NCBI GenBank assembly: GCA_035765895.1
Contig: DASTWL010000002.1
Span: 1 to 41,550 of the forward strand
Reading direction: 5' to 3'
Source: Verrucomicrobiia bacterium
GTDB taxonomy: Bacteria > Verrucomicrobiota > Verrucomicrobiia > Limisphaerales > DSYF01
Length of the DNA stretch: 41,550 bases
This document shows, piece by piece, positions 7,381 to 40,857 of this stretch. The first letter of the stretch is position 1. Each line of letters begins with the position of its first letter. Made by a program: the position numbers and the translations under genes. The notes below the pieces were generated by a model. That model did no database searches. It was not told the origin of the DNA and saw only the letters and a list, made by a program, of their open reading frames with translations.

Positions 7381-7398
7381 TTGTCACCGAATTGTCAC
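7381..7398 (+). promoter_or_regulatory. PHO box (PhoB-type direct repeat) upstream of porin-pst operon
   Basis: Two identical heptamers, TTGTCAC at 7381-7387 and TTGTCAC at 7392-7398, are separated by CGAA, giving an 11-bp period. This is the architecture of a PhoB box (consensus close to CTGTCAT N4 CTGTCAT). A TGTAAC hexamer at 7415-7420 could be the -10. The box lies 61 bp before the porin ATG at the head of the phosphate uptake cluster, which strongly supports phosphate-starvation control. Motif and position are seen; binding is inferred. Confidence 0.8.
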
Positions 7399-7458
7399 AA
7401 TGCCGCCGCATGGGTGTAACACGCCCGTCACAGTGTGTCCGTGCAACGCAATACTTGC

Positions 7459-8730
7459 ATGAAACACACCATGACCAAATACACGAAACTCGCACTGACC
7501 GCCGCCGGCGTCGCCGCCTCCGTGGCCTGCGCCAACAAGGCAACGGCCCAGTCGGATGACGCGCTGCTCAACAAGCTCGTTCAAAAGGGCATCCTGACCG
7601 AGGCCGAAGCCAAGGACTTGAGCAAGGAGAACGACAGGGAGTTTTCCAAGAACCTGTCTGCCAATCTCGGCTTGCCCGCCTGGGTGAGCTCGTTCAAGTT
7701 GAACGGCGATTTCCGCGGCCGGCTCGATTACCTCGGCTCGGACAACTCGGCGTTTACGGATCGTTACCGGCTGCGCTACCGCGTGCGCGCGGGCATCACC
7801 GCCAAGCTGCAGGATGATTTTGAAGTGGGCCTGACGCTGGGCAGCGGGGATTCCGGCGGCAACGCGCTGTCGAACAACACGACGCTCGAAAACAACGGCA
7901 CCAAGAAGCCCATCTGGATTGACAAGGCTTACGCGAAATGGACGCCCATTCACGACGGCGAGTGGACCCTCGGCACCACCATCGGCAAGATGGGCAACCC
8001 GTTCCAATTGTCGGCCATGGTGTTTGATCCGGATTACACGCCCGAGGGCGGGGCGCTGCAAGCCGGTTACAAGATCAACGACCAGCACTCGCTCCAGTTC
8101 AACACGGCCGGCTTCGTGGTGGATGAGCTGGGTGGTTCGTCGCACGATCCCTACCTGCTCGGCGCCCAGGCGTTGTGGAATGCCAGGTGGAGTTCCAAGG
8201 TGGACAGCTCTGTGGGCATTGCGGCCTTCGGCCTCGGCAACCGCGCGGGCAATGACGCCGCACTCGCCAACGGCAACACCGGCAACACGCAGAACAACTT
8301 CAATCCCTACGTCCTCAGCGGCAGCGCGACCTACAAGCTGGATCATTTCCCGCTTTTCCCGGGTGAATGCCCGATCAAGCTGGCGGGCGAATATATGGAC
8401 AATCCGGCGGTTTCGAGCAACGGCGAGGGGTATTCGATCGGGGCCACGCTTGGCAAGGCCGGCAAACGCGGCACGTGGGATCTCTCCTACCGCTACCAAC
8501 GCCTGGAGGCGGATGCCTGGTATGAGGGTTTTGTGGACGACGACAACGTCGCCTACAACGGGGGCATGATTCACGGCACCAACATCAAGGGCCACCTCGT
8601 CAAGCTGAACTACGCCCTCACTGATGCGCTGACCTTCACCTTCACCGGCTATTTCAACGATCTCATCAACGCCGGTCCGGCGAACAACGGCGGCACTCAC
8701 ATCATGGCTGATTTGATGTGGAAGTTCTAA
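7459..8730 (+). CDS. Putative phosphate-starvation porin, tandem copy 2, head of pst cluster
   Basis: 423 residues. Signal peptide (KLALTAAGVAASVACANKATAQ), helical LLNKLVQKGILTEAEAKDL module, then an outer-membrane barrel ending MADLMWKF with terminal Phe. It is paralogous to the porin just upstream but shorter. The PHO box 61 bp in front and pstS only 54 bp behind suggest it is cotranscribed with pst and admits phosphate or phosphorylated compounds across the outer membrane, in the role OprP/OprO play elsewhere; this is inference. ATG 7459 was chosen; ATG 7471 (MTKYTKLAL) is equally plausible and would leave the same mature protein. Confidence 0.8.
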   Translation: MKHTMTKYTKLALTAAGVAASVACANKATAQSDDALLNKLVQKGILTEAEAKDLSKENDREFSKNLSANLGLPAWVSSFKLNGDFRGRLDYLGSDNSAFTDRYRLRYRVRAGITAKLQDDFEVGLTLGSGDSGGNALSNNTTLENNGTKKPIWIDKAYAKWTPIHDGEWTLGTTIGKMGNPFQLSAMVFDPDYTPEGGALQAGYKINDQHSLQFNTAGFVVDELGGSSHDPYLLGAQALWNARWSSKVDSSVGIAAFGLGNRAGNDAALANGNTGNTQNNFNPYVLSGSATYKLDHFPLFPGECPIKLAGEYMDNPAVSSNGEGYSIGATLGKAGKRGTWDLSYRYQRLEADAWYEGFVDDDNVAYNGGMIHGTNIKGHLVKLNYALTDALTFTFTGYFNDLINAGPANNGGTHIMADLMWKF

Positions 8731-8784
8731 AGTTTCTCAACTGTAACCTGAATCCCAAATCATTTGTGGTCTAATCCCACGGAC

Positions 8785-9816
8785 ATGAAGAACCTCATGA
8801 ATACCTCGAAACTGTTTGCATTGGCCGCCGGCGCCCTCGTGGCGTTTGCGGGGCTCACCCAGGCGGCGGAACCGCTGCTCATCAACGGCGCGGGCTCCAC
8901 CTTCGACCTCCCGGCATTCTCCAAGTGGTTCGACGCCTACGCCAAGCTCGATCCCAACACGCGCTTCAACTACCAGTCCATCGGCTCCGGCGGCGGGCAG
9001 CGCCAGTTGCTCAACGAAACGGTGGACTTTGGCGCCTCCGATGCCCCCATGACGGACGAGGCGATGGCCAAGGGGCCGGGCAAAATCCTGCACCTGCCGG
9101 TTGTGGCCGGCGGCGTGGCGATCATCTACAACCTGCCCGGGAATCCGAAGCTCAAGCTCGACGGCGCAACGCTCGCGGACATTTTCCTCGGCAAGGTGGC
9201 CAAGTGGAACGACGCGCGGATCGCGGCGTTGAACCCGGGCGTGAAGCTGCCCGACATGGAAATCATCGTCGTGCATCGCTCGGACGGCAGCGGCACGACC
9301 TTCATCTTCACCGACTACCTCAGCAGCGTCAGTCCGGCGTGGAAATCGCAGGTTGGCAAGGATGTTTCCGTCAAGTGGCCCACCGGGCTGGGCGGCAAAG
9401 GCAGCGAAGGCGTGGCGGGCCAGGTCAAGCAACTGCCCGGCGCCATTGGCTACGCGGAACTCGCCTACGCCAACCAGAACAAGATGCCGTATGCCGATGT
9501 GAAGAATGCGGCGGGCAGTTTTGTCTCGCCCTCGCCGGAATCCGTCAGCGCCGCGCTCGCCACGGCCACGATTCCCGACGACTTCCGCTTCTCGATGGTC
9601 AATCCGCCGGGCGAAAAGGCCTACCCCATCGCCGGCGCCAGCTGGATTCTGGTGTATCAGCATCAGAAGAAGGCCGATCATGGCGAGAAGCTTGCCGGGT
9701 TTCTGAAATGGGCCGTGACCGAAGGGCAGAAGCTGTCGGCCCAGCTGGACTACGCGCCGTTGCCGGAAAATGTCCAGCAACGCGTGCTCAAGCTGGTTGG
9801 CACAATTAAATACTGA
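8785..9816 (+). CDS. pstS: Periplasmic phosphate-binding protein PstS
   Basis: About 343 residues. It delivers phosphate to the PstCAB ABC importer. A signal peptide ending LTQAAE has no lipobox, so the protein is soluble in the periplasm. Phosphate-contact segments are present: GAGSTF near the mature N-terminus, SGGGQRQLLNETVDFGASDAPM-type loop, and HRSDGSGTTFIFTDYLS. Length is normal for PstS. ATG 8785 was chosen; ATG 8797 is an alternative and no clear ribosome site separates them. It follows the porin by 54 bp and is separated from pstC by 102 bp holding a strong hairpin, consistent with higher expression of the binding protein than of the permease. Confidence 0.95.
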   Translation: MKNLMNTSKLFALAAGALVAFAGLTQAAEPLLINGAGSTFDLPAFSKWFDAYAKLDPNTRFNYQSIGSGGGQRQLLNETVDFGASDAPMTDEAMAKGPGKILHLPVVAGGVAIIYNLPGNPKLKLDGATLADIFLGKVAKWNDARIAALNPGVKLPDMEIIVVHRSDGSGTTFIFTDYLSSVSPAWKSQVGKDVSVKWPTGLGGKGSEGVAGQVKQLPGAIGYAELAYANQNKMPYADVKNAAGSFVSPSPESVSAALATATIPDDFRFSMVNPPGEKAYPIAGASWILVYQHQKKADHGEKLAGFLKWAVTEGQKLSAQLDYAPLPENVQQRVLKLVGTIKY

Positions 9817-9853
9817 CACTTTGTTGGGGCGCCCGTTAACCTCGGGCTGGCGC

Positions 9854-9892
9854 GGGACGAAGAGCGAACAGTTCCTCCTCGCTCTTCGTCCC
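9854..9892 (+). terminator. 14-bp stem hairpin between pstS and pstC (attenuator or processing/stabilising element)
   Basis: GGGACGAAGAGCGA at 9854-9867 pairs perfectly with TCGCTCTTCGTCCC at 9879-9892 across an 11-nt loop. A short T run (ATTTTTA) follows a few bases later. Such elements after the binding-protein gene of an ABC operon commonly give partial termination or protect the upstream transcript from 3' decay, setting PstS above PstCAB. The hairpin is seen; the role is inferred. Confidence 0.7.
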
Positions 9893-9918
9893 CATCATTT
9901 TTACGGAAACCGGCGGCC

Positions 9919-10896
9919 ATGCCAGACGTTGCAACAACCGTTCCGAAGTCCGCGCCGGGTGAGCATCACCTGACGCAACACAAGTTCGGCGATCATGCCT
10001 TCAAATGGCTGACGCTGTTCATGGCATTGAGCGTGTTCGCCCTGATTGGGCTGATCGGCTACGAACTGGCGCACGGCTCGACGCTCGCCCTGAAGAAATT
10101 CGGCTGGCGCTTCCTCGTGAGCAGCGACTGGGATCCCGTCAGCGAACAGTTTGGCGCGCTGCCGTTCATCTTCGGCACGCTGGTGTCGTCGCTCATCGCG
10201 CTGGTCATCGCGGTGCCGCTCAGCGTGGCCAGCGCCGTGTTTCTCACCGAAATGGCGCCCCGCTGGTTGCGGCAGCCGCTGACCATCTTCATCGAGCTGT
10301 TGTCCGCCGTGCCGAGCGTCATTCTCGGCCTGTGGGGCATCTTCGTCATGGTGCCGTGGCTGCGGGTGCATCTCTTTCCCTGGCTGAAGAGCACGCTCGG
10401 TTTTTTGCCGCTGTTTCAAGGGCCGATCTACGGCGTCAGCATGCTGGCGGGCGGCATCATTCTCGCCATCATGATCATTCCCATCATCACGTCCGTCTCG
10501 CGCGAGATCATCCGTTCCGTGCCCGGCCTGCAACGCGAGGCGGCCTACGCGCTTGGCGCGACGCGTTGGGAGGTGACGCGCATCGCCGTCCTGAGCTACG
10601 CGAAGAAGGGCCTGTTTGGTGCGACGATTCTCGGACTCGGCCGCGCGTTGGGCGAGACGATGGCCGTGACGATGGTCATCGGCAACCGCCCGGAAATCGC
10701 CAAGTCCCTGTTCGCACCGGGCTACACGCTGGCCAGCGTGGTGGCGAACGAATTCACCGAGGCCACCACGGACCTCTACCTGCACGCGCTGTTTGAACTC
10801 GGGCTCGTGCTGCTGGGCGTGACCATTCTCGTCAACGCGCTGGCGCAGCTCCTTTTGAAAACCTTGGGCGGTCCGGGGGTGAAGGGACAACGCTAG
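9919..10896 (+). CDS. pstC: Phosphate ABC transporter permease PstC
   Basis: 325 residues. Inner-membrane permease of the PstSCAB importer. Multiple hydrophobic segments are visible, starting with WLTLFMALSVFALIGLIGY. The central BPD_transp_1 region shows the coupling loop REAAYALGATRWEVTRIAVL, with the EAA motif that contacts the ATPase. The N-terminal ~28 residues are a hydrophilic cytoplasmic extension. pstA begins 2 bp after its stop, indicating translational coupling. Confidence 0.95.
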   Translation: MPDVATTVPKSAPGEHHLTQHKFGDHAFKWLTLFMALSVFALIGLIGYELAHGSTLALKKFGWRFLVSSDWDPVSEQFGALPFIFGTLVSSLIALVIAVPLSVASAVFLTEMAPRWLRQPLTIFIELLSAVPSVILGLWGIFVMVPWLRVHLFPWLKSTLGFLPLFQGPIYGVSMLAGGIILAIMIIPIITSVSREIIRSVPGLQREAAYALGATRWEVTRIAVLSYAKKGLFGATILGLGRALGETMAVTMVIGNRPEIAKSLFAPGYTLASVVANEFTEATTDLYLHALFELGLVLLGVTILVNALAQLLLKTLGGPGVKGQR

Positions 10897-10898
10897 TC

Positions 10899-11753
10899 AT
10901 GAACGCGCCGAACCATCGCTGGCGGAAGTTCAAGAACGTCCTCATGCAGATCGTCACGCTGGCCTGTGCGCTGCTGGTGATTGCGCCGCTTTGCCTGCTG
11001 TTCTATCACCTGGTCAAATCGGGTTTCAGCGCGCTGAACTGGGCCTTCTTCACGCAACTGCCCAAGCCGGTCGGTGAACCGGGGGGCGGCATGGCCAACG
11101 CGATTGTCGGCACGTTCATCCTGCTCGGGCTGGCTGCGACGATCGGGGTTCCGGTCGGCGTGCTGGGCGGCGTTTATCTTTCCGAATATGGCTCGAACCG
11201 CTTGAACCGCTGGATCCGCTTTGGCGCCGATGTGTTGAACGGCGTGCCCTCAATCACGTGGGGCATGGTGGTCTATGCGCTGATGGTCGTGCCGATGAAG
11301 GGATTCTCCGCCTGGGCCGGCGGCATCGTGCTGGGCATGATGATGGTTCCGCTCATCATGCGCACCACGGAGGAGGTGCTGCAGCTGGTGCCCAACGGCT
11401 ATCGGGAGGCGTCCCTCGCGCTGGGCATCGCCCAATGGCGCACCATCGTCCAGATCGTCGTCCGCACCGCGCTCAAGGGCATTGTTACCGGGGTCCTGCT
11501 CGCGCTGGCCCGCGTGGCCGGTGAAACCGCGCCGCTGCTCTTCACGGCGTTTGGCAACCGCTACTGGAACCACAACCTTTCCGATCCCATCGCCGCGGTG
11601 CCGTTGCAGATTTTCAACTACGCCATTTCGCCCTACGAAGACTGGCACCGGCAGGCGTGGGCGGGCGCCCTCGTGCTGCTGCTGCTCATCACTTTCATCA
11701 ACGTGAGCGTTCGCGTCTTGACCCGCGACCGTCTTGCGCAAAAAAATCACTAA
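10899..11753 (+). CDS. pstA: Phosphate ABC transporter permease PstA
   Basis: 284 residues, second permease subunit of Pst. Six or so hydrophobic segments are visible, with a long periplasmic region after the first. The EAA coupling loop reads [21 protein letters not shown]. Conserved periplasmic segment [22 protein letters not shown] near the C-terminus is typical of PstA. It starts 2 bp after pstC and ends 2 bp before pstB, within a tightly packed operon. Confidence 0.95.
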
Positions 11754-11755
11754 GC

Positions 11756-12634
11756 ATGCCGACTCCCTTCGTTGCCGAACCGCCCCAGCCGAATCCGCCC
11801 GCGCCGGCGAACGCGCCCGTTCCGCCGCGCGCCGAGCCGGCCGCGCCCGCCGGCATCCAGGCCGGAACCGCGTCGCCTGAACTGGCGCTCACGGTCAAGA
11901 ACCTGAGCATTTTCTTCGGCGCCAACCAGGTGTTGAAAAACATTTCCATCAACATCCAGGCGCGTGCCGTGACGGCCATCATCGGCCCCAGCGGCTGCGG
12001 CAAATCCACCTTCCTGCGCTCGCTCAACCGCATGCACGAACTCGTTCCCGAGGCGCGCATGGAGGGCGAAATCCGCCTGTTCGGCCACGACATTTACAGC
12101 CACCAAGTTGATCCGGTGGTGGTTCGCCGCCGCGTCGGCATGGTGTTCCAGAAGTCCAACCCGTTCCCGACCATGTCCATCGCGGACAACGTCACGGTCG
12201 GGCTCCGGCTCAACGGCGTTCGCAACCGCAAGCTGCTCGTCGAACGCACGGAACAGGCGCTGCGCATGGGCGCCCTGTGGGACGAGGTCAAGGACCGCCT
12301 GAATGCGCCCGCCATCAGCCTTTCGGGCGGTCAGCAGCAACGCCTGTGCATTGCCCGCGCACTGGCGGTGCAGCCGGAAGTATTGTTGATGGACGAGCCC
12401 GCGTCGGCGCTCGACCCGATTGCCACTTCCCGCATCGAGGAACTGATCCTCGAATTGAAACAAAACCTCACCGTCGTCATCGTCACCCACAACATGCAGC
12501 AGGCGGCGCGCATGTCGGACTTTACGGCGTTCTTCTATCTCGGCTCGCTGGTGGAATTCAACACGACCGAAAAGATTTTCACCGCGCCGGCCAACAAGCA
12601 GACCGAGGATTACGTCACCGGCCGCTTCGGTTGA
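11756..12634 (+). CDS. pstB: Phosphate ABC transporter ATPase PstB with Pro/Ala-rich N-terminal extension
   Basis: 292 residues. Cytoplasmic ATPase powering phosphate import. Walker [10 protein letters not shown] (~76-84), Q-loop [15 protein letters not shown] signature LSGGQQQR (~189-196) and Walker [13 protein letters not shown] are all intact, followed by the switch His in IVTHNMQQA. The first ~42 residues are an unusual Pro/Ala-rich, probably disordered extension before the usual PstB start ([13 protein letters not shown]). ATG 11756 is 2 bp after pstA; no later ATG precedes the conserved core, so the extension is probably real. Confidence 0.95.
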
Positions 12635-12647
12635 TTTCATTTTGTCC

Positions 12648-13319
12648 ATGCAAACGCATCACGAGAAGGAACTGTCCGACCTCAAGGACCGGCTGCTCAT
12701 CATGGCCAGCCACGCGGAAATGGCCGTCACGCAGGCTGTCGAGGCCGTGGTCAACCGCGACGAGGCGCTCGCCCGCAAGGTCCGCGCCGACGACGAGACG
12801 CTGGACCGTTTCGAGGTGGAACTCGACGACATGGCCGTGCACCTCCTGGCCAAGGCGCCGCTGGCCACCGAACTCCGGCTCGTGCTCATGGTGATGAAAA
12901 TGTCCCAGAACCTGGAGCGCATCGGCGACGAGGCCTCGAAGATTGCCAACCGTGCCCGCGACCTCGCCCAGGAACCGCCGCTCAAGGTGAACGTGGACAT
13001 TCCGCGCCTCGCCCGGCTCGTCCTCGACATGTTGAAGGGCGCCCTCGACGCCTTTGTCCGCCGCGATGCCGAGGCCGCGCGCGCCTTGATCCCGCGCGAC
13101 AAGGAGGTCGATGCCCTCAACAAGCAGTTCCAGAACGACTTGATCGCCCTCATGGCCGAGAATCCGGAGAACATCCGGCGTGCGCTCTGGCTGACTGTTG
13201 TCTCCAAGAGCCTCGAACGCATTGCCGACCACGCCAAGAACGTGGCGGAAGACGTCGTATATCTCTGCGAGGCGCTCGACATCCGGCACAGTGGCAAGTC
13301 GGCGCCGACGGCCGCCTAG
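12648..13319 (+). CDS. phoU: Phosphate signalling/transport regulator PhoU
   Basis: 223 residues, all helical, two tandem PhoU domains (~1-105 and ~115-210). Each carries the acidic helix motif, LERIGDEASKIANRA in the first and LERIADHAKNVAED in the second. PhoU restrains PhoR/PhoB signalling and Pst activity when phosphate is plentiful. ATG 12648 lies 13 bp after pstB; the frame also opens at TTG 12642. The presence of phoU at the operon end supports Pho-regulon control of the unit. phoB/phoR are not in the window. Confidence 0.93.
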   Translation: MQTHHEKELSDLKDRLLIMASHAEMAVTQAVEAVVNRDEALARKVRADDETLDRFEVELDDMAVHLLAKAPLATELRLVLMVMKMSQNLERIGDEASKIANRARDLAQEPPLKVNVDIPRLARLVLDMLKGALDAFVRRDAEAARALIPRDKEVDALNKQFQNDLIALMAENPENIRRALWLTVVSKSLERIADHAKNVAEDVVYLCEALDIRHSGKSAPTAA

Positions 13320-13483: not shown

Positions 13484-13486
13484 GAA

Positions 13487-18816: not shown

Positions 18817-18853
18817 TTGCACCCTCGCCATTGTGAGTCAGGAGTGGCCATTG

Positions 18854-20828: not shown

Positions 20829-20829
20829 G

Positions 20830-21240: not shown

Positions 21241-22109
21241 GCTCCCACGAGCGCGGCTTCACGTTTTTCCAGCGTGTGAATGAGCTGGCGGGCGAACGCC
21301 TCGTTGGCGCTGCGCAATTCCTCGGCGAGCGGGCGGTGGTCCACATAGACGTGCTCGACCTGGTTCGCGTAACGGCTGGCGAAGCCGTCAAGTTCCTGCG
21401 TGATGTGCCGGATGGTGGTGACCATGAAGTTGTAGGCGAACATGGCAGGAATCGCGACGAGCAGGCCCGTGACCGTGGCCACCAGTGCCGCGGCAACGCC
21501 GGGTGCCATGGCCGTCAAGCTGGCCGAATGGCTCTCCGCGATGCCGGCAAAGGTGGACATGACGCCCCACACCGTGCCGAGCAGGCCGATGAATGGCCCG
21601 CCCGCCACGGCGGTGGACAGCACGATCATGCCTTTTTCCAGGGCCATCGCCTGTTCCCCGGCGGCTTCCTCCATGACGACCTTTACGGCTTCGAACGAGC
21701 CCTGGTTGATTTTGACCCGGTTGGCCCGGGCCAGATGCTCCGTGGCGCCGTGCTGGCTGGCGTGGGCGGAGTGCACGGCGGGCCGCGTTTCGACGGGGTT
21801 GTTCTTCAAGTGATAGCCCAGCTCATCCGCGCCGCGGATGTAAAGCTGGTAGGCGGGCGCGCCTTCAAACGCTTCGCCCTTGCGTTGCACGTCCAGCGGG
21901 TCATGCGTCGCATTGTAAGCGGCCATGAATTTTTTGGTCGCTTTCCGGGCAATGTGAATTTGCCGGTATTTGGTCAGGATGACCGTCCAGCTGAACAGCG
22001 ACAGGGCGAACAGCACACCAACGGTGATCAGGCCTTCGGTCGTGGCGTTCTTGATGGCATAGACCGCCGCGTTCGAGGCGAACAAGGGGTGGAAGAATTC
22101 AGGGTTCAT
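21237..22109 (-). CDS. exbB: ExbB/TolQ/MotA-family proton channel protein
   Basis: 290 residues, inner membrane. Three transmembrane segments are visible: GLITVGVLFALSLFSWTVIL, STAVAGGPFIGLLGTVWGVMSTF-type and ATVTGLLVAIPAMFAYNF, with the conserved family motif GLLGTVWG. The long cytoplasmic segment between TM1 and TM2 is typical. It follows the porin gene by 35 bp and overlaps exbD by 4 bp. Confidence 0.92.
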   Translation of the reverse strand: MNPEFFHPLFASNAAVYAIKNATTEGLITVGVLFALSLFSWTVILTKYRQIHIARKATKKFMAAYNATHDPLDVQRKGEAFEGAPAYQLYIRGADELGYHLKNNPVETRPAVHSAHASQHGATEHLARANRVKINQGSFEAVKVVMEEAAGEQAMALEKGMIVLSTAVAGGPFIGLLGTVWGVMSTFAGIAESHSASLTAMAPGVAAALVATVTGLLVAIPAMFAYNFMVTTIRHITQELDGFASRYANQVEHVYVDHRPLAEELRSANEAFARQLIHTLEKREAALVGA

Positions 22110-22144: not shown

Positions 22145-23770
22145 TTAAAACTTCAGTGTCAGGTCAACTTGAAAGAGATTGAAGTTGTCGATGGGGTTGA
22201 TCTGCGGCAGGTCCTGGTTGCTGCCGCCGGTGCCGAGACGCTTGTTGATGCGTTGGGCGTGGGCGTAGCGGAACGAGCCGATGAAATGGCGGCTCAGCCC
22301 GTAGGAGACCTGCACGTTGATGCCTTCCAGGTTCTCGCGGCCCTCGAACGTGTCCGAATCGATGAGGTTCGGGTCGAGCGAATACTGTTCGGTGTGCTGC
22401 CAGAAGGTCTTGAACTCCCACGGATGCCGCGCGGCCCAGCCCGTGTCGCTGCCGAGCGCAAACCCGATCTGGTAGGCCATGTTTTCGTCCGTTTGCGGCG
22501 CGAACGGCTGCACGTTGGGGGTGGTGGGTTGATTGGCGAGCCAGTTCGCGTAGCCGGCGGCGGCGGCCTTGGCGCGGTCGGAGCCTTGGAGATTGTAGGC
22601 CACGTCGCCAAACACGCGTGCGTCCAGCTGGCGCAGCTTGAAATTCAGTTCAAACGGCACCTCGACCACGAGCAGGTCGTTCAGACCCACTTGATTGAGC
22701 GGAAAGCCCGTGCTGCCGTAACCGGGCAGCGAACTGGATGTGCCGTAGCCGCTGGAGCCGTTGACGGTTCCCGAACCGGGCCCGAGATACGCACCCTCGC
22801 CAACATACGGATCGCCAAAATACGGCGACAATGCTCCGGGGCCCGTGGTGGAACTGCGCTGCCGGCCGAGGTAGTGATAAATCGTGGCGGCAACTTTGGC
22901 CGTGGTGTTGGTGGTGAGGTGGTATTTGAAACCGGCCTGCCACGCGAGTTGGAAGACGTTTTCGGTGTTTTGTCCGGCCAGTCCGTTGAAACCAAGCCCG
23001 CCGTCGGCCGAAGCCGGATTCACGTCCTGGTAGATGAACTGGCCGAATGTGGCGAAGAAATCCGCTTCGCCCACCACGTAATGGAAACGTTCCGCCGCGC
23101 CCTCGACGTTGAGGTCGGAATCCCACACGAGCGGCGTCGTGAAGAGAGGGTTCGGCATCTTGCCGACGGTGAGATCCATCCAATCCCAACGGGCGGGATG
23201 CCAGCCGACATACGCCTGGCCGATTGCGATGCCGGCCGATGACTTGCCGAAGGGCCCCTGGTAGGGCGAACCACTGGATGACGTGCCTAAGCTCACCCAG
23301 GACGAGCGCGGGTTGGCGGAGGTGTCCAGCCGGACGCCGTAATAAAAGTCGTCAAAAAAATCGCCGTGCAAGCCCACGCGCACGGCATAGCGGAAGCGCT
23401 GCAAATCCACGCTGCCGCCCGGCGCCTCGACCGAGCGGTCTTCGTAGCGCAACCGCACGTCGCCGAACAATTCGAGCTTCTGGACGGTGTCGCTAATTTT
23501 CCAACGCGACGGGGGAATATGCGGCATCTCGGTCCGGTTCGTGCGCAGCGCTTCAATCTCGGAGCGTGCCTTGGCCGCTTCGCCTTCCGTGATGAAACCC
23601 TTTTGCAAAAACAAATTGATGATCGGGTCGGAAGTGTCTTCGCCCCGGCCCGCCAAGCGCCCGGCGGCGAGCAGGGCGGTGGTCAGAACTACCGTCCAAC
23701 GGACGGATAGAAACCTGGTCTGGCTGCGGAGCGGGTTGGAGCTCCGTGTCGCGGCGACATTAATTCGCAT
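22145..23770 (-). CDS. Putative outer-membrane porin heading the TonB-ExbBD cluster
   Basis: 541 residues. A long signal region (TVVLTTALLAAGRLAGRGED) is followed by the same short helical module as the other two porins (LFLQKGFITEGEAAKARSEIEAL) and a large aromatic-rich barrel ending FQVDLTLKF with terminal Phe. The family is a putative Porin_5-like protein. No plug domain or TonB box is recognised, which makes its position at the head of a TonB operon notable. A palindrome lies ~45 bp upstream of the ATG. Confidence 0.8.
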   Translation of the reverse strand: MRINVAATRSSNPLRSQTRFLSVRWTVVLTTALLAAGRLAGRGEDTSDPIINLFLQKGFITEGEAAKARSEIEALRTNRTEMPHIPPSRWKISDTVQKLELFGDVRLRYEDRSVEAPGGSVDLQRFRYAVRVGLHGDFFDDFYYGVRLDTSANPRSSWVSLGTSSSGSPYQGPFGKSSAGIAIGQAYVGWHPARWDWMDLTVGKMPNPLFTTPLVWDSDLNVEGAAERFHYVVGEADFFATFGQFIYQDVNPASADGGLGFNGLAGQNTENVFQLAWQAGFKYHLTTNTTAKVAATIYHYLGRQRSSTTGPGALSPYFGDPYVGEGAYLGPGSGTVNGSSGYGTSSSLPGYGSTGFPLNQVGLNDLLVVEVPFELNFKLRQLDARVFGDVAYNLQGSDRAKAAAAGYANWLANQPTTPNVQPFAPQTDENMAYQIGFALGSDTGWAARHPWEFKTFWQHTEQYSLDPNLIDSDTFEGRENLEGINVQVSYGLSRHFIGSFRYAHAQRINKRLGTGGSNQDLPQINPIDNFNLFQVDLTLKF

Positions 23771-23814: not shown

Positions 23815-23832
23815 CGTTACGATCTCGTAACG
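23815..23832. promoter_or_regulatory. Palindrome upstream of the porin-exbB-exbD-tonB-exbD operon
   Basis: CGTTACGA (23815-23822) and TCGTAACG (23825-23832) form a perfect 8-bp inverted repeat around TC, 45 bp upstream of the porin ATG. The right half continues CGTAACGAACCCC, resembling CGTAACGAAACCG at 18760 upstream of the neighbouring AraC regulator. It is a good candidate operator for this operon. Confidence 0.5.
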
Positions 23833-23885
23833 AACCCCGGGCGGCGGAAAATTTTTCGCGACGGCATGGCAAACGCGCCGCGGCG

Positions 23886-25103
23886 TCACCAACGTTGCAC
23901 CCGATAGAACCGCTGGCTTCCGGGCGGGGCCGGATCCGTCAATGTCAGGAGACCACCGGAGCCGGCGTGGAGCGGCAGCGCGTGCCAGGTCACGTCCGTC
24001 AGTGAGTCCTGATATTCGAGTTGATACACGCGACCGTTTTGGGTCGGCAGCGAGACGTTGAATCCCGCGGCCGTGAAGCCGTCAACGGTCACCGGCACTT
24101 GGGTGACCGGGGGTGCTGAGCCTTGCAGCGCCAGACTGTGCAATCGCCCGGCGGCAATGCGCACGACGTTGCTCAAGCCGGGCGGCACGGTGCTCTGGCC
24201 GAAATCAACATTCGTGTTCGCACCGCTGCCCGCGCCCCACGCCGCCACCGTTCCGTCGCGTCGCAAGGCGAGACTGTGCCAGCCGCCGGCGGCGATTTGC
24301 ACCACGTTGCTCAAGCCCGGTGGCACGTCGGCTTCGCCGTAGGTGTCCAGTCCCCAGGCCGCGACGGTGCCATCTGATTTCAACGCCAGATTATGGGCGA
24401 CGCCTGCCGCGATGGCGACCACGTTGCTCAAGCCCGGCGGGAGATTGGTCTGCCCGCTGTCGCCGCGGCCCCAGGCGCGGAGCGTTCCGTCGGCTTTCAG
24501 CACCAGGCTGTGCCAGCCGCCACCCGCCACGGCGACCACGTTGGAAAGACCGGCCGGCACGGCTGCCTGGCCGTAATTGTAGGCGCCTTCGCCGCCCCAC
24601 GCGGTCACGGTGCCGTCCGCCTTGAGGGCGAGCCCGTGATATGCGCCGCCCGCCACGGCCACGGCGTTGCTCAACCCGGCCGGGACATCCAGCTCGCCGT
24701 AGAAATTGTCATCGCCCGTGGCGGCCACCGTGCCATTGGTCCGCAACGCCAGGCTGAACAGGTCGCCGCATGCGACCGCGAGATAGTTGCTGGTGGACGG
24801 GAAATCCGTTTGGCCCAGGGTGTCTTCGCCCCAACCCAGCAGCGTGCCGTCATTGCGCACCGCCAGGCTGTGACGCCAGCCGCCCGCGAGCTGCGTCGCG
24901 TTGGTCAAGCCGGTGGGCACGAGGGACTGCCCGGCCTGGTTGTAATTGTTGGGATTCACAACGGTGCCGGCGCCCCACGCGACAACATTGGCCGCCGAGC
25001 CTGACGCGGCGGCGTTCAGCAGGACGACGAGCGCTGCGTGGCACAGCCAGGCGGGTGAACCGCAACGCGCAGCGGGTTGGCGGGGTGATGAGAAGTGGTT
25101 CAC
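23886..25103 (-). CDS. Secreted RCC1-repeat beta-propeller protein with C-terminal FYRV module
   Basis: About 405 residues from GTG 25103. The signal peptide has its hydrophobic core at AWLCHAALVVLLNAAASGSA. Seven RCC1-type repeats follow (pattern VVAIAAGVAHNLALKSDGTVAAWG, with spacer VPPGLSN), predicted to form a propeller. The last ~65 residues form a beta-rich module (VYQLEYQDSLTDVTW to QRFYRVQRW) also seen at the end of the protein at 29839. The frame runs back to ATG 25190, but that would give a ~66-residue pre-sequence and place a palindromic regulatory element inside the gene, so GTG 25103 is preferred. Function is unknown; RCC1 propellers usually mediate protein binding. Confidence 0.75.
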   Translation of the reverse strand: MNHFSSPRQPAARCGSPAWLCHAALVVLLNAAASGSAANVVAWGAGTVVNPNNYNQAGQSLVPTGLTNATQLAGGWRHSLAVRNDGTLLGWGEDTLGQTDFPSTSNYLAVACGDLFSLALRTNGTVAATGDDNFYGELDVPAGLSNAVAVAGGAYHGLALKADGTVTAWGGEGAYNYGQAAVPAGLSNVVAVAGGGWHSLVLKADGTLRAWGRGDSGQTNLPPGLSNVVAIAAGVAHNLALKSDGTVAAWGLDTYGEADVPPGLSNVVQIAAGGWHSLALRRDGTVAAWGAGSGANTNVDFGQSTVPPGLSNVVRIAAGRLHSLALQGSAPPVTQVPVTVDGFTAAGFNVSLPTQNGRVYQLEYQDSLTDVTWHALPLHAGSGGLLTLTDPAPPGSQRFYRVQRW

Positions 25104-25537
25104 GAGGATTGAACGATGTTGTTTCGTCGCGCGCGAGTCTGCCACGGTAGGCCGATTGTCTGCGTTACAATCGTGAAACAACCGGCGCATTGCTTCGCGT
25201 TGCTCTTACAAATGCGCGGTCCGGCGCAAGCTCACCGCGCGCGTGGTTCTTTCTGGGCAGCCGCGCATTTTTTTGCGGCACCAAACCGGGTGGCGTCGCA
25301 CAACCGATTTGCGTGACCTTTCAGCGACGATGTCCGGTGGAACGGCGACGGCGGCCGCGATGGTCCCGCAAATGGTTCATCGCCAAGCGATTCGTCGCCC
25401 GCCGCGCAGTTCCTAAAACAGAACCCGCGTGTCCGCAGGCATGAAGTGATTTTCCGGACAGAACCCTAGAGTGAGCGCGGGTCAACTCATTGCTTTGGGG
25501 AGATCACGCGACACACAAGCAACAGAAATCAACAACC
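25104..25537. other. Divergent intergenic region between RCC1-repeat and PEP-CTERM genes
   Basis: About 430 bp without a convincing gene. It holds the TTGTAACGCAG-containing palindrome at 25153-25173. The frames that cross it are short and have no family features. A TAGAGT hexamer near 25468 could be a -10 for the PEP-CTERM gene, but I see no matching -35. Confidence 0.5.
25153..25173 (-). promoter_or_regulatory. Palindrome with TTGTAACGCAG element at the RCC1-repeat gene
   Basis: On the plus strand CGATTGT (25153-25159) and ACAATCG (25167-25173) form a perfect 7-bp inverted repeat around 7 bp. Read on the minus strand, TTGTAACGCAGAC spans 25170-25158; the 13-mer is shared exactly with 38757-38769. 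The element lies 50-70 bp upstream of the preferred GTG start. Confidence 0.55.
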
Positions 25538-26364: not shown

Positions 26365-27606
26365 ATGAACATGAAATCAGCAACCACGGCCGCCCTCATC
26401 GCCTTGGGCCTCATCTCCCAGGCCAGTGCCGACAACGTTGTTTACCTCACCGGATCAACGGCGTTCCGTTCCACCGTTTACAACGTGCTGGCCGGCACGA
26501 ATGTGTTTGACGTGGCGCCCACGTATGTCAGCCGCAAAGGCTCGGGCAGTTCGGCCAGCTACATGCTGTTCCACGGCGACATCAACGGCACGCCCACCTA
26601 CATCAACTGCGTGTGGAGCGGTTCCGAAGCCGGCATCGCCTCCGTCGCAAACGTGACGATCGACAACGACGGCAATCCGCTGCCGGGCTCGCCGGCCACG
26701 TGGTTGAAAGCCGATGGCTCGGTGACGGGCAACGACACCGGCGCTCCGACGTCGGGTGAACTGGAAGCGTCCAGCCACGGTGCCGATCTGGCCATGGCGG
26801 ACACGTCGCAGGCCGTTTCGCTGACACCCAAGGTGGCCAACACCTCGACCGATTTGAAGGACTACGGCACAGTCGGCATCGTCACATTTGTCTGGGTCAA
26901 GAACCTCAACTCCAGCCCCTCGGCGGAGTGGAGCGCGCTGACGAACGTCAGCATTCCGCAGCTCAACTCGCTGATCAGCGCCGGCTATCAACCGGCGGCG
27001 TTCTTCACCGGGAATGTGGCGCACACCAACAACAACGTCTATCTCGTGGGCCGCAACAAGGGCTCCGGCACGCGCGCCAACACGCTGGCCGACACGCTCT
27101 ACGGCACCACGCGGAGCGTGCAGCAGTTTTCCATCGGCGGCGGGGTTTCCACGCCGACGGACGGCACGCTCACCCTCGCCTATGAAGGCAACAACGGCTA
27201 CGAAAGCGGCGGCGGCGTGGCAGGCGCGTTGAAAGTGGACGGCAGTTGCGGGCAGACGGATCCGTTCTTCCCCGGCAAGCCCGGCTGGCTGGCCATTGGC
27301 TACCTCGGCATCGGCGACGCGGGCGGAACGCTGGCCAACAACTGGCTGACGCTCGATGGCACGGCCGAGTCCGACGGCGCCATTGCGGAAGGCCGGTATT
27401 CGTTCTGGGGCCATGAGCACGTGTTCGGCAAGCAGAACATCAGCGGTTTCCTCGACACGGTGGGCGGCAAGCTGCACGACGGCATCATCGCCAACCTGGA
27501 AACCGCCGGCGCGGGCAGCAATCCGGCCGCGCACTCCGGTGCCATCGCGGTGAAATACATGCACTGCGACAAGGCCAGCGACGTGGCCTTCCCGACCCGC
27601 AACTGA
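26365..27606 (+). CDS. Exported PstS-like (PBP-fold) protein
   Basis: 413 residues. Signal peptide (AALIALGLISQASA). The mature protein begins NVVYLTGSTAFRST, resembling the GAGSTF phosphate loop of PstS, and later has VYLVGRNKGSGTRANTL, matching the RSDGSGT loop of PstS. This suggests a periplasmic-binding-protein fold of the PBP_like_2/PstS type, though it is longer and otherwise diverged. It lies 53 bp after the PEP-CTERM gene and may be cotranscribed. No permease or ATPase is adjacent, so a soluble scavenging or sensing role, or another ligand, is possible. No PHO box is seen upstream. Confidence 0.65.
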   Translation: MNMKSATTAALIALGLISQASADNVVYLTGSTAFRSTVYNVLAGTNVFDVAPTYVSRKGSGSSASYMLFHGDINGTPTYINCVWSGSEAGIASVANVTIDNDGNPLPGSPATWLKADGSVTGNDTGAPTSGELEASSHGADLAMADTSQAVSLTPKVANTSTDLKDYGTVGIVTFVWVKNLNSSPSAEWSALTNVSIPQLNSLISAGYQPAAFFTGNVAHTNNNVYLVGRNKGSGTRANTLADTLYGTTRSVQQFSIGGGVSTPTDGTLTLAYEGNNGYESGGGVAGALKVDGSCGQTDPFFPGKPGWLAIGYLGIGDAGGTLANNWLTLDGTAESDGAIAEGRYSFWGHEHVFGKQNISGFLDTVGGKLHDGIIANLETAGAGSNPAAHSGAIAVKYMHCDKASDVAFPTRN

Positions 27607-36260: not shown

Positions 36261-36302
36261 CCGGTTCGCCAGAGCGGGATTTTATCATCTCCCGCGAACC
36301 GG
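36261..36302 (-). other. Hairpin in the tpsB-tpsA intergenic region
   Basis: CCGGTTC (36261-36267) pairs with GAACCGG (36296-36302), and the inner GCGGGA (36274-36279) pairs with TCCCGC (36290-36295), with a 6-nt bulge on one side and a 10-nt loop. It lies between the PHO box and the tpsA ATG and would form in the tpsA leader. No T tract is seen. On the minus strand a TAAAAT hexamer in the loop region (36279-36284) could instead be a -10. Confidence 0.5.
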
Positions 36303-36317
36303 TTGAATGCCTCCGCG

Positions 36318-36335
36318 GTGACATTTGGGTGACAT
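36318..36335 (-). promoter_or_regulatory. PHO box upstream of tpsA
   Basis: Read on the minus strand, ATGTCAC (36335-36329), CCAA (36328-36325) and ATGTCAC (36324-36318) form a perfect 7-4-7 direct repeat with 11-bp period. This is the same architecture as TTGTCAC-CGAA-TTGTCAC before the porin-pst operon, with 15 of 18 positions identical. It begins at the last base of the tpsB stop and lies 84 bp before the tpsA ATG, in the correct orientation. Binding by PhoB is inferred. Confidence 0.7.
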
Positions 36336-38671
36336 CAGAATTGCGCCGTCAGCGCGAAGTTGAAGAACGGCTCGTGGGCGTTGATCGTGCCGGCGTCCAG
36401 CAGCGGCAGCGAAAAGAGGAAGCGCGCCTCCCAGTAGGAACCGAGGGAAGCCACCGTCCCAAAGCCTACGCCCCACAAGGCGGTGCGGCCGTCACGGCCC
36501 TGCGGATCCAGCAAATAGGTTTCGGCGTAGTCCATGTAAACCGAACCGCGCACGGTCAACGGCAGTTGGCCGGCGACCATGCCGACGACGTGCGGTGGCG
36601 TCTTTTGTTCCAAGGACACGTGCCAGCCGGTGTCGCCGAACACCTCGCCTTCGTGATAGCCGCGGACGCTTGCGATGCCGCCCGCGCCAAACTGTTCGTT
36701 GCTGATCAACGGTTCGCTGGCCCAGCGACCGTTGGCGCGCAGCGACAGGACCCAGTTGGTGCGCACCACGATGTCGGCGGAGAAATTCGGATCCAGCGTG
36801 ACCCAGTGACCGGAGGCCTTGGTGGAGCCGGCGATGTTTTGGAGATTGCTCGTGGAGCCGGAGAAGCTGGTGTTGGCGCTCAGGCCCAGGCCAAAACCCA
36901 GCGTGGCGCGCGGCACGCGCCACTGGGCGTTGTAGGCCAGCGAAACGGGCAGGTAATCGAGCGACTGACGCGTCTCGGGCACCGGCGAATTCACGGTGCT
37001 GACGACCGGCGGATTCTGGTTGCCGTTCGCATCGTAGGTGATTTCCGACAGCACAAAGCTGTTCGTTTTGCCGGAATTCAGCGCGTAGGACTTGAAATCG
37101 AGTCCTTCGGAGAAGCTGGAGCTGAACGTTTCCGTGCCGCGCGCGGGCTGGTTGAGGCGGAACCCCAGGGACTCGTTGACGGTGAGGTCCTGTTGCGAGT
37201 CGTTGCGCGTGATGCGCCGCACGCCCGGAATGTCCAGCAGCGTGGCGCTCGACAGGTTTTGAACGCCCGTGTCGATCGTGGCGCGACTGGCATACACCGT
37301 CAAATCCATCTGCCCCGAGGGCGGCGGCAGCACGAACCGGCGTTCCCCTTCATTGTAACCGAAACTGCCCGGGTTGCTGGCAATGACGTCCGCCACCGCC
37401 TCGGGGTTGAACAGCGGCAGCCGGTAAAAGGCGCTGTAGTTGGCGACCAACGGCAGGTCGTAGGTGTTCCACTGGTCGCCCGCCTTCCAGGCCTCCGGCG
37501 AGAAACTGTATTGCACGCCGAGCGAGTGCTCGTGCTGCCACAGGTTGTTGTAGGCCGCCGAGGCGTTGACCCGCAAATCCGGCGTGCCCGGCGTGCTCTG
37601 GTTGTTCAGCTCCAGCTTGCCGTGCAGCGGGAGGTGATCCTTGACATTGAGCGTCAGTTCGCTGGTGCCGGGATCGAAGCCCGGACCAATCACTGGATAG
37701 ATCTGGCGATCCTGGTTGGCGTTGGCGCGATTGAGTTCGGATTGAAAGACGAGGCCGTTCAGAATCATGTTCGTGTGCAGGCTCGGCAGCGCGCGCATGA
37801 CGTTGTTGGAGCTGAAGTAATGGTTGCCCCGGACGTTGATGGTCGCCAGCCGGCCTTCGGTCACGCGCAGGCGGACGCTGGCGTTGGTGAGCTTTTGCTG
37901 CGGCAATCCGACTGATGCGGTCACGTAGCCGCGGACGCGATAGGCTTGTTGCAGCTCGGACAGTGCCGCCTGAATGCCGCCCAGGGTGACGTTGGTGCCG
38001 AACGCCGCCGGCGCGTTGGTGATCGCCCGGGCGATTTCGGCCGACGACAGCAAGGTGTTGCCCTCAACCAGATACTTTCTCACTTCGAATGCCGGTCCGC
38101 TGTTGGTGGCCGTGGCACTGGCGGTGGCCGGGGATGCCGGTGAGCCGGCTGGTTCAGCGGGCGCAGGATTGGCCGCGGTGACTTCGCCCTCCGGCGAAAT
38201 CACGTAACGCCGGCCGGCCAGCACGATTTGCGGCAGCGCGCCGTGAAACACGTTGAGCGTCACCACGCCGTCGCCCGCGTGCTGCGTGCCGATGACGACG
38301 CTCAGGTCCGGATGACCGTGGTCGCGATACACCGTCTGCACTTCGGCCGCCACGCGCACGAGTTCGTCCGGTGCAATGTTGGTGCCGGCGTGGCGGGAAA
38401 AGATCGGCGCGAGCAGGTTGGTCGCCGGGGGAATGGTTCCTTCGATGCTGAAGGAACGCACGTTGAATCCGGTGAGCGCGGCCGGTGCGTCAGCTTTGCC
38501 GGCGGGCGGGCTGACTGCGGCCGCCGTCGCATCGGCGCCGTGGGCTTGCCCCATGGCCATCAGCCCGGTCAATCCGGGCAACAGGAGCAGGGTTCGGAGA
38601 TGCGTCCATGAGAACAACACCGAGGGAAGCTGGGTGGCGTGTATTACGGTTCTTTGTCGGCGCCGTGACAA
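36335..38671 (-). CDS. TpsB outer-membrane translocator (ShlB/FhaC/HecB family)
   Basis: Up to 778 residues. It forms the 16-strand outer-membrane pore that exports TpsA. After the signal peptide (LLLLPGLTGLMAMGQAHG) come a first POTRA-like region (~67-145, FNVRSFSIEGTIPP), a Pro/Ala/Thr linker, a POTRA_2 domain (~192-272, FEVRKYLVEGNTLLSSAEI) and the barrel, with the conserved loop-6 motif SVRGY (~670, GGIASVRGYHEGE) and a C-terminal Phe (FALTAQF). The start is uncertain: TTG 38671 gives the longest frame, and GTG 38620 would give a more normal signal peptide. It heads the tpsB-tpsA pair and is divergent from an AraC regulator. Confidence 0.88.
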   Translation of the reverse strand: MSRRRQRTVIHATQLPSVLFSWTHLRTLLLLPGLTGLMAMGQAHGADATAAAVSPPAGKADAPAALTGFNVRSFSIEGTIPPATNLLAPIFSRHAGTNIAPDELVRVAAEVQTVYRDHGHPDLSVVIGTQHAGDGVVTLNVFHGALPQIVLAGRRYVISPEGEVTAANPAPAEPAGSPASPATASATATNSGPAFEVRKYLVEGNTLLSSAEIARAITNAPAAFGTNVTLGGIQAALSELQQAYRVRGYVTASVGLPQQKLTNASVRLRVTEGRLATINVRGNHYFSSNNVMRALPSLHTNMILNGLVFQSELNRANANQDRQIYPVIGPGFDPGTSELTLNVKDHLPLHGKLELNNQSTPGTPDLRVNASAAYNNLWQHEHSLGVQYSFSPEAWKAGDQWNTYDLPLVANYSAFYRLPLFNPEAVADVIASNPGSFGYNEGERRFVLPPPSGQMDLTVYASRATIDTGVQNLSSATLLDIPGVRRITRNDSQQDLTVNESLGFRLNQPARGTETFSSSFSEGLDFKSYALNSGKTNSFVLSEITYDANGNQNPPVVSTVNSPVPETRQSLDYLPVSLAYNAQWRVPRATLGFGLGLSANTSFSGSTSNLQNIAGSTKASGHWVTLDPNFSADIVVRTNWVLSLRANGRWASEPLISNEQFGAGGIASVRGYHEGEVFGDTGWHVSLEQKTPPHVVGMVAGQLPLTVRGSVYMDYAETYLLDPQGRDGRTALWGVGFGTVASLGSYWEARFLFSLPLLDAGTINAHEPFFNFALTAQF

Positions 38672-38756
38672 AACGGCAACAACCGCCGCGCCGCGGGCCG
38701 GGCGGTGCGGGAATGTCGGCGACAGTTTGCGTTGTTTTTTCCCAACCGTCGCGGGT

Positions 38757-38767
38757 TTGTAACGCAG
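38757..38767 (+). promoter_or_regulatory. TTGTAACGCAG element in the tpsB/AraC divergent region
   Basis: Exact copy of the 11-mer found at 18803 and, on the minus strand, at 25160-25170; it continues AC as in the latter. It lies 54 bp before the AraC ATG and ~90 bp from the longest tpsB start, so it could serve either gene. The flanks GTTTGT and ACGAAC are nearly complementary, giving an imperfect dyad. Confidence 0.5.
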
Positions 38768-38820
38768 ACGAACTAGCTCTCTCCGTCACGCGGAGCCAAC
38801 CGCCAACACCCACATCGCCC

Positions 38821-39687
38821 ATGAGATCTTCCACCCGTGCGCACGAACCCCACCTGGCCTTGCGGGAGAGGGTGGTTCCGCCGGGTGGGGAATGGGCGCC
38901 ACGTTCAGTGGGCTGGCTCGTGCTCCGTATTCGGGCCGGCGACGGTTACTGGCTCCAGCCGAATCAAAACCTGCCCCTGACGGCTGGCGCGGTCGTGGTG
39001 GCCCCGGGTGAGGCGCCGGTGGTTCTGCGCGCCAGTCATTTGAGCCGGCTGGAAGTGCAGTATTTCACCGTTGTGCCGCGGCGCCTGGGCGGTTTGCTGA
39101 CCTTGACCGAGCAAAACTTTCTGCAAGCCGCCAGCCGGACCGGCGCCTTTCAAATTTTGCCGCCGCACCATCCGGTCGCGTTGCGGATGCAGGAATGCTG
39201 CGCGAACGCGGGCCAGCCGCGGCTCGCGGACCGGCTGAAGCTGCTGCAGGTGTTCGTGGAGGCGGTGGGCGACGAGCCGGGTCCGCCGCCATCGGACCAG
39301 GGTCCGGCGGAGGCGCGGGAACGGCTGCGCCAATTTCTGGCAGCCACGCCGGCTTCGGAGCTGCTGGAAATGAGCACGCACGAACTCGCGCAGCGAACGC
39401 ATTGCACCCCGCGGCACCTGAGCCGCATCTTTCGCGAACTCGTGGGCGTGTCGTTTCAGGAGAAGCGCGCCGAGTTGCGGCTGGCAAGGGCGCGCGAGCT
39501 GCTCGCCACCAGCGATTCCAAGATTGTGGACGTTGCCTTGGAGAGCGGTTTCAAGTCGCTCAGTCTCTTCAACCTGATGTTCTCCCGACGGTTTGGCGCG
39601 AGTCCGGGCCAGTGGCGTCACCGGCACGGACGACCGCGCGCCCAACGCGGGAAACGCGCTCCAGCACCGGCCGCGGCGCCGGCCTGA
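38821..39687 (+). CDS. AraC-family transcriptional regulator 2
   Basis: 288 residues. N-terminal cupin-like sensor (RERVVPPGGEW, GWLVLRIRAGDGYWL, VVLRASHLSRLEVQYF), C-terminal double helix-turn-helix (STHELAQRTHCTPRHLSRIF and KIVDVALESGFKSLSLFN), then FSRRFGASPGQWR. The sensor aligns by eye with the regulator at 18854 (PGGEW/PGEER, GYWL/LYWL, LRAS/VRAS), indicating paralogy. ATG 38821 is chosen; the frame opens at 38608, but that would include the divergent promoter region. It is divergent from tpsB and a natural candidate regulator of it. Ligand unknown. The C-terminal tail is Arg/Ala/Pro-rich. Confidence 0.85.
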   Translation: MRSSTRAHEPHLALRERVVPPGGEWAPRSVGWLVLRIRAGDGYWLQPNQNLPLTAGAVVVAPGEAPVVLRASHLSRLEVQYFTVVPRRLGGLLTLTEQNFLQAASRTGAFQILPPHHPVALRMQECCANAGQPRLADRLKLLQVFVEAVGDEPGPPPSDQGPAEARERLRQFLAATPASELLEMSTHELAQRTHCTPRHLSRIFRELVGVSFQEKRAELRLARARELLATSDSKIVDVALESGFKSLSLFNLMFSRRFGASPGQWRHRHGRPRAQRGKRAPAPAAAPA

Positions 39688-39762: not shown

Positions 39763-40557
39763 TCAACTTTCCAACGGCCCCGCCAAAGCCTGCAATGCCC
39801 GCTGCTTCGGCGCGGCTTTACGCTGTTGGTTCAGCTCCGTCTGAATCTGCCGCCGCAGTCGGGTCACTTCGCGGGACCGGCCGCATCGGGCCAGACTGTG
39901 CCCGATGACCTCCCCATCTTGCACGGCGCCGAGAACTTCCTGTGCGGCGATGAGCGCGCGCACGACGGGGCTGTGGGCCATCTCGCGCCGCGGCAGCACC
40001 AATTCCTCCAGGTAACGCCAGCGGCGGATGCGGCGCCGCAAGGCGTGCAGCTCCGGGGTTGCAAACGTGGCCGCCTGCGCGACGTCCGCGCGGCAGCGGG
40101 CGGCCAGTGCGTGCCGCCATTTGGTGAAGCGTGCCGCCAGTTTTTCCGCCCCGACTTTTGCAAGGGCACGCGACTTGGGTGGGCGCGCTTCGCGTCGCAA
40201 CGTCCGGAGGTGGCGTTCGGCCGGCTGCCAGGATTGGGCGCGCTCTTGCAGCACGCGGGTCAGCAACGCCGGGGAAGCCTGCTGGGCGCGGACCCATTGC
40301 AGCGTGACGTCAAAATCGCGGATGGGCGCCAGCACGTCCATGATCTGGCGGGCGGCGGCGCGGAAAAGCCGGGTGCGGTGGTGGTCGCGGTGTGGGTTGC
40401 CCAACTGCAACAGCAGCCGGGCCCGGCGCAGCGCCACGCGCAAATCATGCACGGCGGTCGCATTGAGCGGACCGCGTCGCCGCAGCAAGGTTTCGGACCG
40501 TTTGAGGCTGGCGGTCAGGGCGCGCTGCCATCGTTTGCGCAAACGGCCGGGTTTCAT
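39763..40557 (-). CDS. CHAD-domain protein
   Basis: 264 residues, basic and helical. Conserved CHAD segments are present in order: VHDLRVALRRARLLLQL, LAPIRDFDVTLQWV, ELHALRRRIRRWRYLEELV and AAQEVLGAVQDGEVIG, with the conserved histidines. CHAD proteins are known polyphosphate-binding proteins, often found near polyP or phosphate genes. No CYTH/triphosphatase domain is fused. ATG 40557 (MKPGRLRKRW) is preferred to the frame start at 40698, because a palindrome with TTGTAAC lies between them. Its presence in a window with two PHO boxes is suggestive, but no PHO box is seen here. Confidence 0.85.
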   Translation of the reverse strand: MKPGRLRKRWQRALTASLKRSETLLRRRGPLNATAVHDLRVALRRARLLLQLGNPHRDHHRTRLFRAAARQIMDVLAPIRDFDVTLQWVRAQQASPALLTRVLQERAQSWQPAERHLRTLRREARPPKSRALAKVGAEKLAARFTKWRHALAARCRADVAQAATFATPELHALRRRIRRWRYLEELVLPRREMAHSPVVRALIAAQEVLGAVQDGEVIGHSLARCGRSREVTRLRRQIQTELNQQRKAAPKQRALQALAGPLES

Positions 40558-40599
40558 GGCTTGGGCAGGATTGCCGGTTCGCCGGCCGACGGCAATTGC

Positions 40600-40617
40600 C
40601 GAATTGTAACACATTCG
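40600..40617. promoter_or_regulatory. Palindrome with TTGTAAC upstream of the CHAD gene
   Basis: CGAAT (40600-40604) and ATTCG (40613-40617) flank TGTAACAC, forming a short perfect dyad 43 bp before the CHAD ATG. It resembles the dyads around TTGTAAC at 25153 and 29651 but lacks the GCAG extension. This is a weak candidate on its own. Confidence 0.3.
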
Positions 40618-40857
40618 CCGCGCGCCTGAAACACGCTTCCAGCAGTTTGGGGGCGTCGTTTGAATCATACCGTTGCCGCCATGAACGTGTCCCGTCATTC
40701 CTGTTTCCGCTCACCACGCCTGTCGATGGCCGGTTTGCCGGTTCCTCCGCCCGGCCGGCGGATTCCCATCGTGGCGGGGAGCCCGGTTGAATTTTTGGTC
40801 CGCCTCCGTGAGGTGCGACGCCGGTCGCGGCGGAACTGGAGCCGTTCCTGATTGAAC

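Follow-up and report, generated by a model that had tools for sequence, protein, structure and literature searches.

In the Limisphaerales genome studied here, a direct repeat lies between tpsB and tpsA, the two genes of a two-partner secretion (TPS) system. Its sequence makes it very probably a PhoB binding site, and we give a probability of about 0.8 to the prediction that it drives an internal tpsA promoter under low phosphate. The repeat is part of a window of 41,550 nucleotides (the whole stretch of DNA that was analysed), in which all parts of the tps locus fall between 20.1 and 38.7 kb, with the pst-phoU operon 7 kb away (Table 1).

Read on the minus strand from 36335 to 36318, the repeat is ATGTCACCCAAATGTCAC. 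Its two identical 7-mers have an 11-bp period, fit the genome's own PhoB half-site, and become 8-mers once the following C is counted. This bears out exactly the 7-4-7 direct repeat that the original prediction had placed on this strand. The likeness claimed for it to the box in front of the porin-pst operon was also confirmed, with TTGTCAC-cgaa-TTGTCAC at 7381-7398 of the plus strand showing the same architecture. The tpsB-tpsA box overlaps the tpsB stop codon, TGA (36337-36335), by one base, its first A, and the tpsA ATG (36234) lies 83 nt past the end of the box. The second 7-mer contains an in-frame ATG (36324), which we discounted as the start of tpsA: an alignment to 15 orthologues favours 36234, and the 30 residues that the earlier ATG would add appear unrelated.

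Table 1 Genes and predicted regulatory elements of the tps locus and the pst-phoU operon, by position in the window
Feature	Position	Strand	Basis or remark
PHO units TTGTCAC, TTGTCAC, CCGCCGC, GTGTAAC, CCGTCAC	7381..7431	plus	11-bp period; matrix score 24.7
Porin_5, pstS, pstC, pstA, pstB, phoU	7435..13319	plus	Pfam; PhoU TIGR02135 above cut-off
exbB, exbD, tonB	21237-22109, 20830-21240, 20145-20858	minus	Pfam
Porin_5 gene of tps locus	22145..23770	minus	PF16930, 101 bits; conserved neighbour
PHO box of tps-locus Porin_5, TCGTTAC-gaga-TCGTAAC	23816..23833	minus	Matrix score 16.2
PstS-like exported protein, phosphate-binding-protein fold	26365..27606	plus	Profile and structure model
Conserved exported protein of ~330 aa	29827..30897	plus	tps neighbour in 37 loci
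tpsA, TPS exoprotein, 1423 aa	31963..36234	minus	Pfam PF05860, 76.8 bits; NCBIfam TIGR01901
Predicted extended -10 TG-A-TAAAAT of tpsA promoter	36279..36287	minus	TAnnnT phasing
Weak -35-like TTCAAC	36302..36307	minus	Sequence only; unconserved
PHO box ATGTCAC-ccaa-ATGTCAC between tpsB and tpsA	36318..36335	minus	Matrix score 16.5; box recurs in relatives' spacers
tpsB ORF, POTRA and ShlB-type barrel transporter	36335..38671	minus	Pfam PF08479, 76.2 bits; PF03865, 52.3 bits
Predicted tpsB -10 TAATAC	38641..38646	minus	18 nt past TTGTCAC; TAATAT or similar in relatives
tpsB PHO box TTGTTGC-cgtt-TTGTCAC-ggcg-CCGACAA, three units	38654..38682	minus	Matrix score 16.3 (38682-38665)

The transporter gene has a PHO box of its own. 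The same arrangement recurs at seven loci of relatives (L147, L152, L156, L157, L166, L167 and L177), whose tpsB boxes likewise have a third unit of the YYGAC type and a TAAT-containing element at about equal distance. Because tpsB carries this conserved box (38682-38665), tpsA is not uncoupled from its transporter gene, as the original prediction had supposed it to be. What the sequence predicts is an additional internal PhoB promoter for tpsA, on top of a tpsB promoter with read-through, and the likely purpose of the extra promoter is to make exoprotein in excess of transporter. The true tpsB start is probably GTG 38620 or nearby. Divergently from tpsB runs an AraC-type gene (38608-39687), and a CHAD-domain protein is encoded upstream of tpsB (39763-40698, minus strand); the CHAD domain is a known polyphosphate binder.

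TpsA begins with a signal peptide, predicted by eye, and an N-terminal TPS domain that scores 76.8 bits against a PF05860 cut-off of 33.5; the Pfam scan recognised no other domain in it. We found 79 TpsA loci, nearly all in Verrucomicrobiota. Full-length orthologues are 37-53% identical from end to end, and in relatives tpsB and tpsA are neighbours at almost every readable locus. The C-terminus of TpsA (residues 1405-1423) is acidic, then lysine-rich, and has a strongly conserved end motif with the consensus RxVGRVTVILP, possibly a sorting or retention signal.

The neighbours of the tps genes also recur. Counted by locus, they are an exported protein of ~404 aa (43 loci), the exported protein of ~330 aa (37), ExbB (35; in relatives mostly directly after tpsA), ExbD (32), TonB (26) and Porin_5 (19). 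The ~404-aa family had no match in Pfam. Searched as a profile against the PDB, it found PstS (4exl, E 5.9e-17), and a model of the window's member aligned to the PstS structure 4lat with a TM-score of 0.79 by target length. For the ~330-aa neighbour, there was no Pfam match and no confident fold match. Linked Porin_5 genes have a same-strand PHO box in 14 of 18 cases and an opposite-strand box in none; in the tps locus of the window, TAGCAT (23782-23777) follows the Porin_5 box by 33 nt, a spacing equal to that of tpsA. TPS matches on plasmids of Thalassospira and Azospirillum had no phosphate, TonB or porin neighbours, and a Porin_5 query among plasmids returned nothing informative.

After phoU (13471-16347) come genes for a low-molecular-weight phosphatase-like protein (ArsC-like), a methyltransferase (ArsM-like) and an SBF-family permease (Acr3-like), which look like an arsenic operon beside pst. 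A PHO-like site, CCGTAAC-gaaa-CCGTCAC (18759-18776, plus strand, score 14.8), precedes an AraC-type regulator gene (18833-19717, plus strand), and another, TTGTTTC-acga-TTGTAAC (25164-25181, minus strand, score 14.5), is located at the start of a gene for an RCC1-repeat protein (23886-25190).

The parallel drawn in the original prediction with PdtA/PdtB of Pseudomonas aeruginosa (PA0690/PA0692) is wider than proposed: both are TPS pairs under pho boxes in which the exoprotein gene has its own promoter, and ExbB-ExbD-TonB and porin genes are common to both as well. In P. aeruginosa, the pdtA promoter is separate from that of phdA-pdtB-exbB2D2-tonB4-PA0696-PA0701, and both hold PhoB-binding pho boxes; the pdtA box sits upstream of a -35 region, and its mutation abolishes activity (PMC4971064). 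PA0696 is listed as a presumed porin of the outer membrane (PMC7035377), and TPS, ExbBD and PA0696 are found together in other Proteobacteria as well (PMC2729926). By gene content, the Limisphaerales locus resembles a PUMA3-type locus, with linked exbB-exbD-tonB and porin genes and a nearly equal gene set. It differs from the Pseudomonas locus in the order tpsB-tpsA, the box in the spacer, the sigma-70-like -10 elements and the PstS-like neighbour, whereas the Pseudomonas sigma-VreI/PhoB regulon also requires the ECF factor sigma-VreI with the anti-sigma VreR and has the Hxc type II system and LapA. None of the window ORFs covered by the Pfam scans encoded VreA, VreI or VreR. The Pseudomonas locus ends with LysR and AraC regulators, and the window also has AraC-type genes.

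A putative pho box has also been described before cdiB2 of Acinetobacter baumannii (PMC6831553). In this case, the cdi2 locus of strain DSM30011, a TPS-type contact-dependent inhibition locus, the box was reported for the transporter-gene promoter only, and TpsA differs from the cdi2 system in lacking a recognised domain besides TPS. The literature that we searched held no description of a phosphate-controlled TPS in Verrucomicrobiota.

TpsA may serve phosphate acquisition or attachment during starvation. There is not quite an even chance that it acts in starvation as a general adhesin or as a biofilm fibre and has no part in obtaining phosphate, an explanation compatible with the proposed promoter. 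Its TPS domain resembles the HMW1 and EtpA adhesins, which fits attachment, and PdtA, for which no phosphate role is known, has been connected with virulence in a nematode model (PMC5422565). However, the steady neighbourhood of PstS-like protein, PHO-boxed porin and TonB-ExbBD fits phosphorus uptake and points in that direction. A further proposal is that a single outer-membrane machine, built of TpsA, the PstS-like protein, the PHO-boxed porin and ExbB-ExbD-TonB, captures extracellular phosphorus and is common to Verrucomicrobiota and the Pseudomonas sigma-VreI/PhoB locus; this seems to us unlikely.

Comparison of tpsB-tpsA spacers across relatives showed that the position and strand of the box are conserved, although many members of the family do not have it. 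Of the 60 distinct spacers with a length of 40 nt or more, 16 had a coding-strand box scoring at least 12, and no spacer had one on the opposite strand. The number of boxed spacers expected was 0.15 from shuffled spacers and 0.45 from other windows of the same loci; the boxed spacers are from related genomes and are incompletely independent. The box typically begins no more than 3 nt from the tpsB stop, which also holds for the source genome, while the flanking bases vary. On the TpsA tree, the box label is clustered (9 changes against a shuffled mean of 13.9), and six of the eight members of the source genome's TpsA clade have the box. PHO control does not extend to the whole family: of 65 loci in which both regions could be read, 37 had no box scoring at least 12 before either tpsB or tpsA. 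Some spacers are too short for a promoter, and the unboxed members may have lost the box, may never have had it, or may carry one below the threshold. In the closest genomes (same genus, same family), the tps operon is absent.

Downstream of the box, TAAAAT (36284-36279) lies at a distance of 33 nt and is predicted to be an extended -10 because TG stands one base upstream. Of the 17 boxed spacers, 15 had a TAnnnT element 22-24 or 31-33 nt after the box, compared with a mean of 1.5 and a maximum of 7 in shuffles, or a maximum of 8 with windows chosen post hoc. The two distance classes are separated by roughly one turn of the helix. The -35-like TTCAAC is placed 10 nt past the PHO box and 17 bp ahead of the -10; a simple sigma-70 scan found no promoter in this region and left TTCAAC unrecognised. 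An inverted repeat, CCGGTTCGC/GCGAACCGG (36261-36302), spans the predicted -10, and its hairpin would be possible in tpsB read-through mRNA and impossible in mRNA from the internal promoter. We rejected it as a terminator: on the coding strand no T-run follows the repeat, and the folding energy of the spacer is ordinary (z -1.0).

In classical E. coli PHO promoters (pstS, phoA), two 7-bp direct repeats with a 4-bp spacer stand on the coding strand upstream of the -10, which is about 10-11 nt from the box. The Limisphaerales promoters share the repeats, the spacer, the strand and the place ahead of the -10, and they differ in the distance to the -10 (22-24 or 31-33 nt) and in the half-site, YYGT(C/A)AC. 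The greater distance counts against the reading as a PHO promoter, although the pdtA box of P. aeruginosa also stands ahead of a -35 region. It could still be that PhoB binds the tpsB-tpsA site without transcriptional effect and that the tpsA transcript arises by tpsB read-through only. PhoB sites inside E. coli genes are mostly inert and unconserved (PMC10294691), and the box lies right at the end of tpsB, while the spacers of many relatives have none. We nevertheless regard an inert site as improbable, as strand and position are conserved across many species, nearly always before a phased TAnnnT.

The distribution of the motif across the genome links it to phosphate control. With zero mismatch, TGTCAC-N5-TGTCAC occurs at only three sites in 4.64 Mb (96 contigs): at 7382 (porin-pst), at 36318 (tpsB-tpsA) and on contig C87 at 4764, before phoB-phoR. 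The only exact sites other than that of the tps locus are those of core Pho genes. With TGTMAC half-sites, the genome has four sites against one for a reversed control pattern; the fourth (contig C7, 21284; L227, about 1785) is found at the start of a VTC-domain gene (polyphosphate polymerase type), on the opposite strand. In 19 genomes, exact TGTMAC-N5-TGTMAC gave 64 sites against 15 for the reversed control, with 8 at tps loci, 9 at phoB and the rest including PstS or Porin_5 genes. Genome G019 was omitted from this count; it has 19 copies of TGTCACTTTCxTGTCAC-type sites on many contigs, a dispersed repeat family mimicking PHO boxes. A loose pattern search of the window alone had no significance (3 matches against 1.9 expected).

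Tandem YYGT(C/A)AC units with an 11-bp period were detected in 20 phoB promoters, mostly at one position relative to the gene. The working matrix was derived from 18 two-unit sites of relatives' phoB promoters, with the source genome and its congener omitted. On it, the tpsB-tpsA box scores as a PHO box, at 16.5. Training on phoB promoters also allowed pst promoters to be recovered in 4 of 7 genomes. The conserved ATGGTA/ATGCTA of the phoB promoters, an apparent -10, was set aside, since phoB may start in frame at these bases.

The site on contig C87 is directly upstream of a gene for a PhoB-type response regulator of the OmpR family. The best NCBIfam model for this regulator is PhoB, at 243.9 bits, below the NCBI cut-off of 296.2, and the gene is followed by that of a PAS-HisKA-HATPase kinase, the expected PhoR. 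It is the single regulator in the source genome matching at E<=1e-60, and a phoB orthologue was present in 24 of 25 genomes searched. In three genomes without a phoB box (L074, L086 and L089), the sequence just before phoB resembles by eye the end of phoU, which supports the phoB identity. In one relative (L145, contig C48 of G070), phoB lies within about 10 kb of tpsBA.

These data also bear on whether PhoB is the protein that reads the motif. Direct-repeat sites are common to OmpR-family regulators, and an AraC-type regulator is encoded beside tpsB, in divergent orientation, so that another protein of either type might bind here. This is very improbable, considering that the remaining exact sites in the genome are only at pst and phoB, that one regulator of the genome matches at the above threshold, and that phoB promoters were the training set of the matrix. 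Least credible is a chance repeat beside a stop codon: loose matches are expected, as in the window, but the genome-wide exact count, the conservation, the strand bias of 16:0 and the -10 phasing all speak against it.

If the repeat is a PhoB site driving an internal tpsA promoter, PhoR would phosphorylate PhoB when phosphate is scarce, and PhoB bound to both 7-bp units would help RNA polymerase to start at the TAAAAT element 33 nt further on; the resulting tpsA mRNA would carry a leader of about 38 nt. The second PHO promoter, before tpsB (-10 TAATAC), would provide the transporter and, via read-through, more tpsA, and the internal promoter would raise the exoprotein relative to the transporter. 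A single Pho regulon would in this way take in tpsB, tpsA, the Porin_5 gene close by, the pst operon and phoB. The products may form a phosphate-starvation surface module in which TpsB exports the TpsA fibre, while the PstS-like exported protein, ExbB-ExbD-TonB and the porin act at the outer membrane.

Phosphate-controlled TPS has so far been worked out in P. aeruginosa, with a tentative case in Acinetobacter, and the purpose of the Pseudomonas sigma-VreI/PhoB locus has so far been read mainly as virulence. That nearly the same PHO-boxed gene set spans an order of another phylum suggests a primary role in phosphorus starvation, with host interaction no more than a secondary one. With the Limisphaerales PHO-box matrix and the promoter spacing, the Pho regulon can be predicted for a large group of mostly uncultured bacteria. 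Because tps genes, regulatory sites and phosphate-related neighbours recur across the order, its members appear to export a giant surface protein in phosphate shortage.
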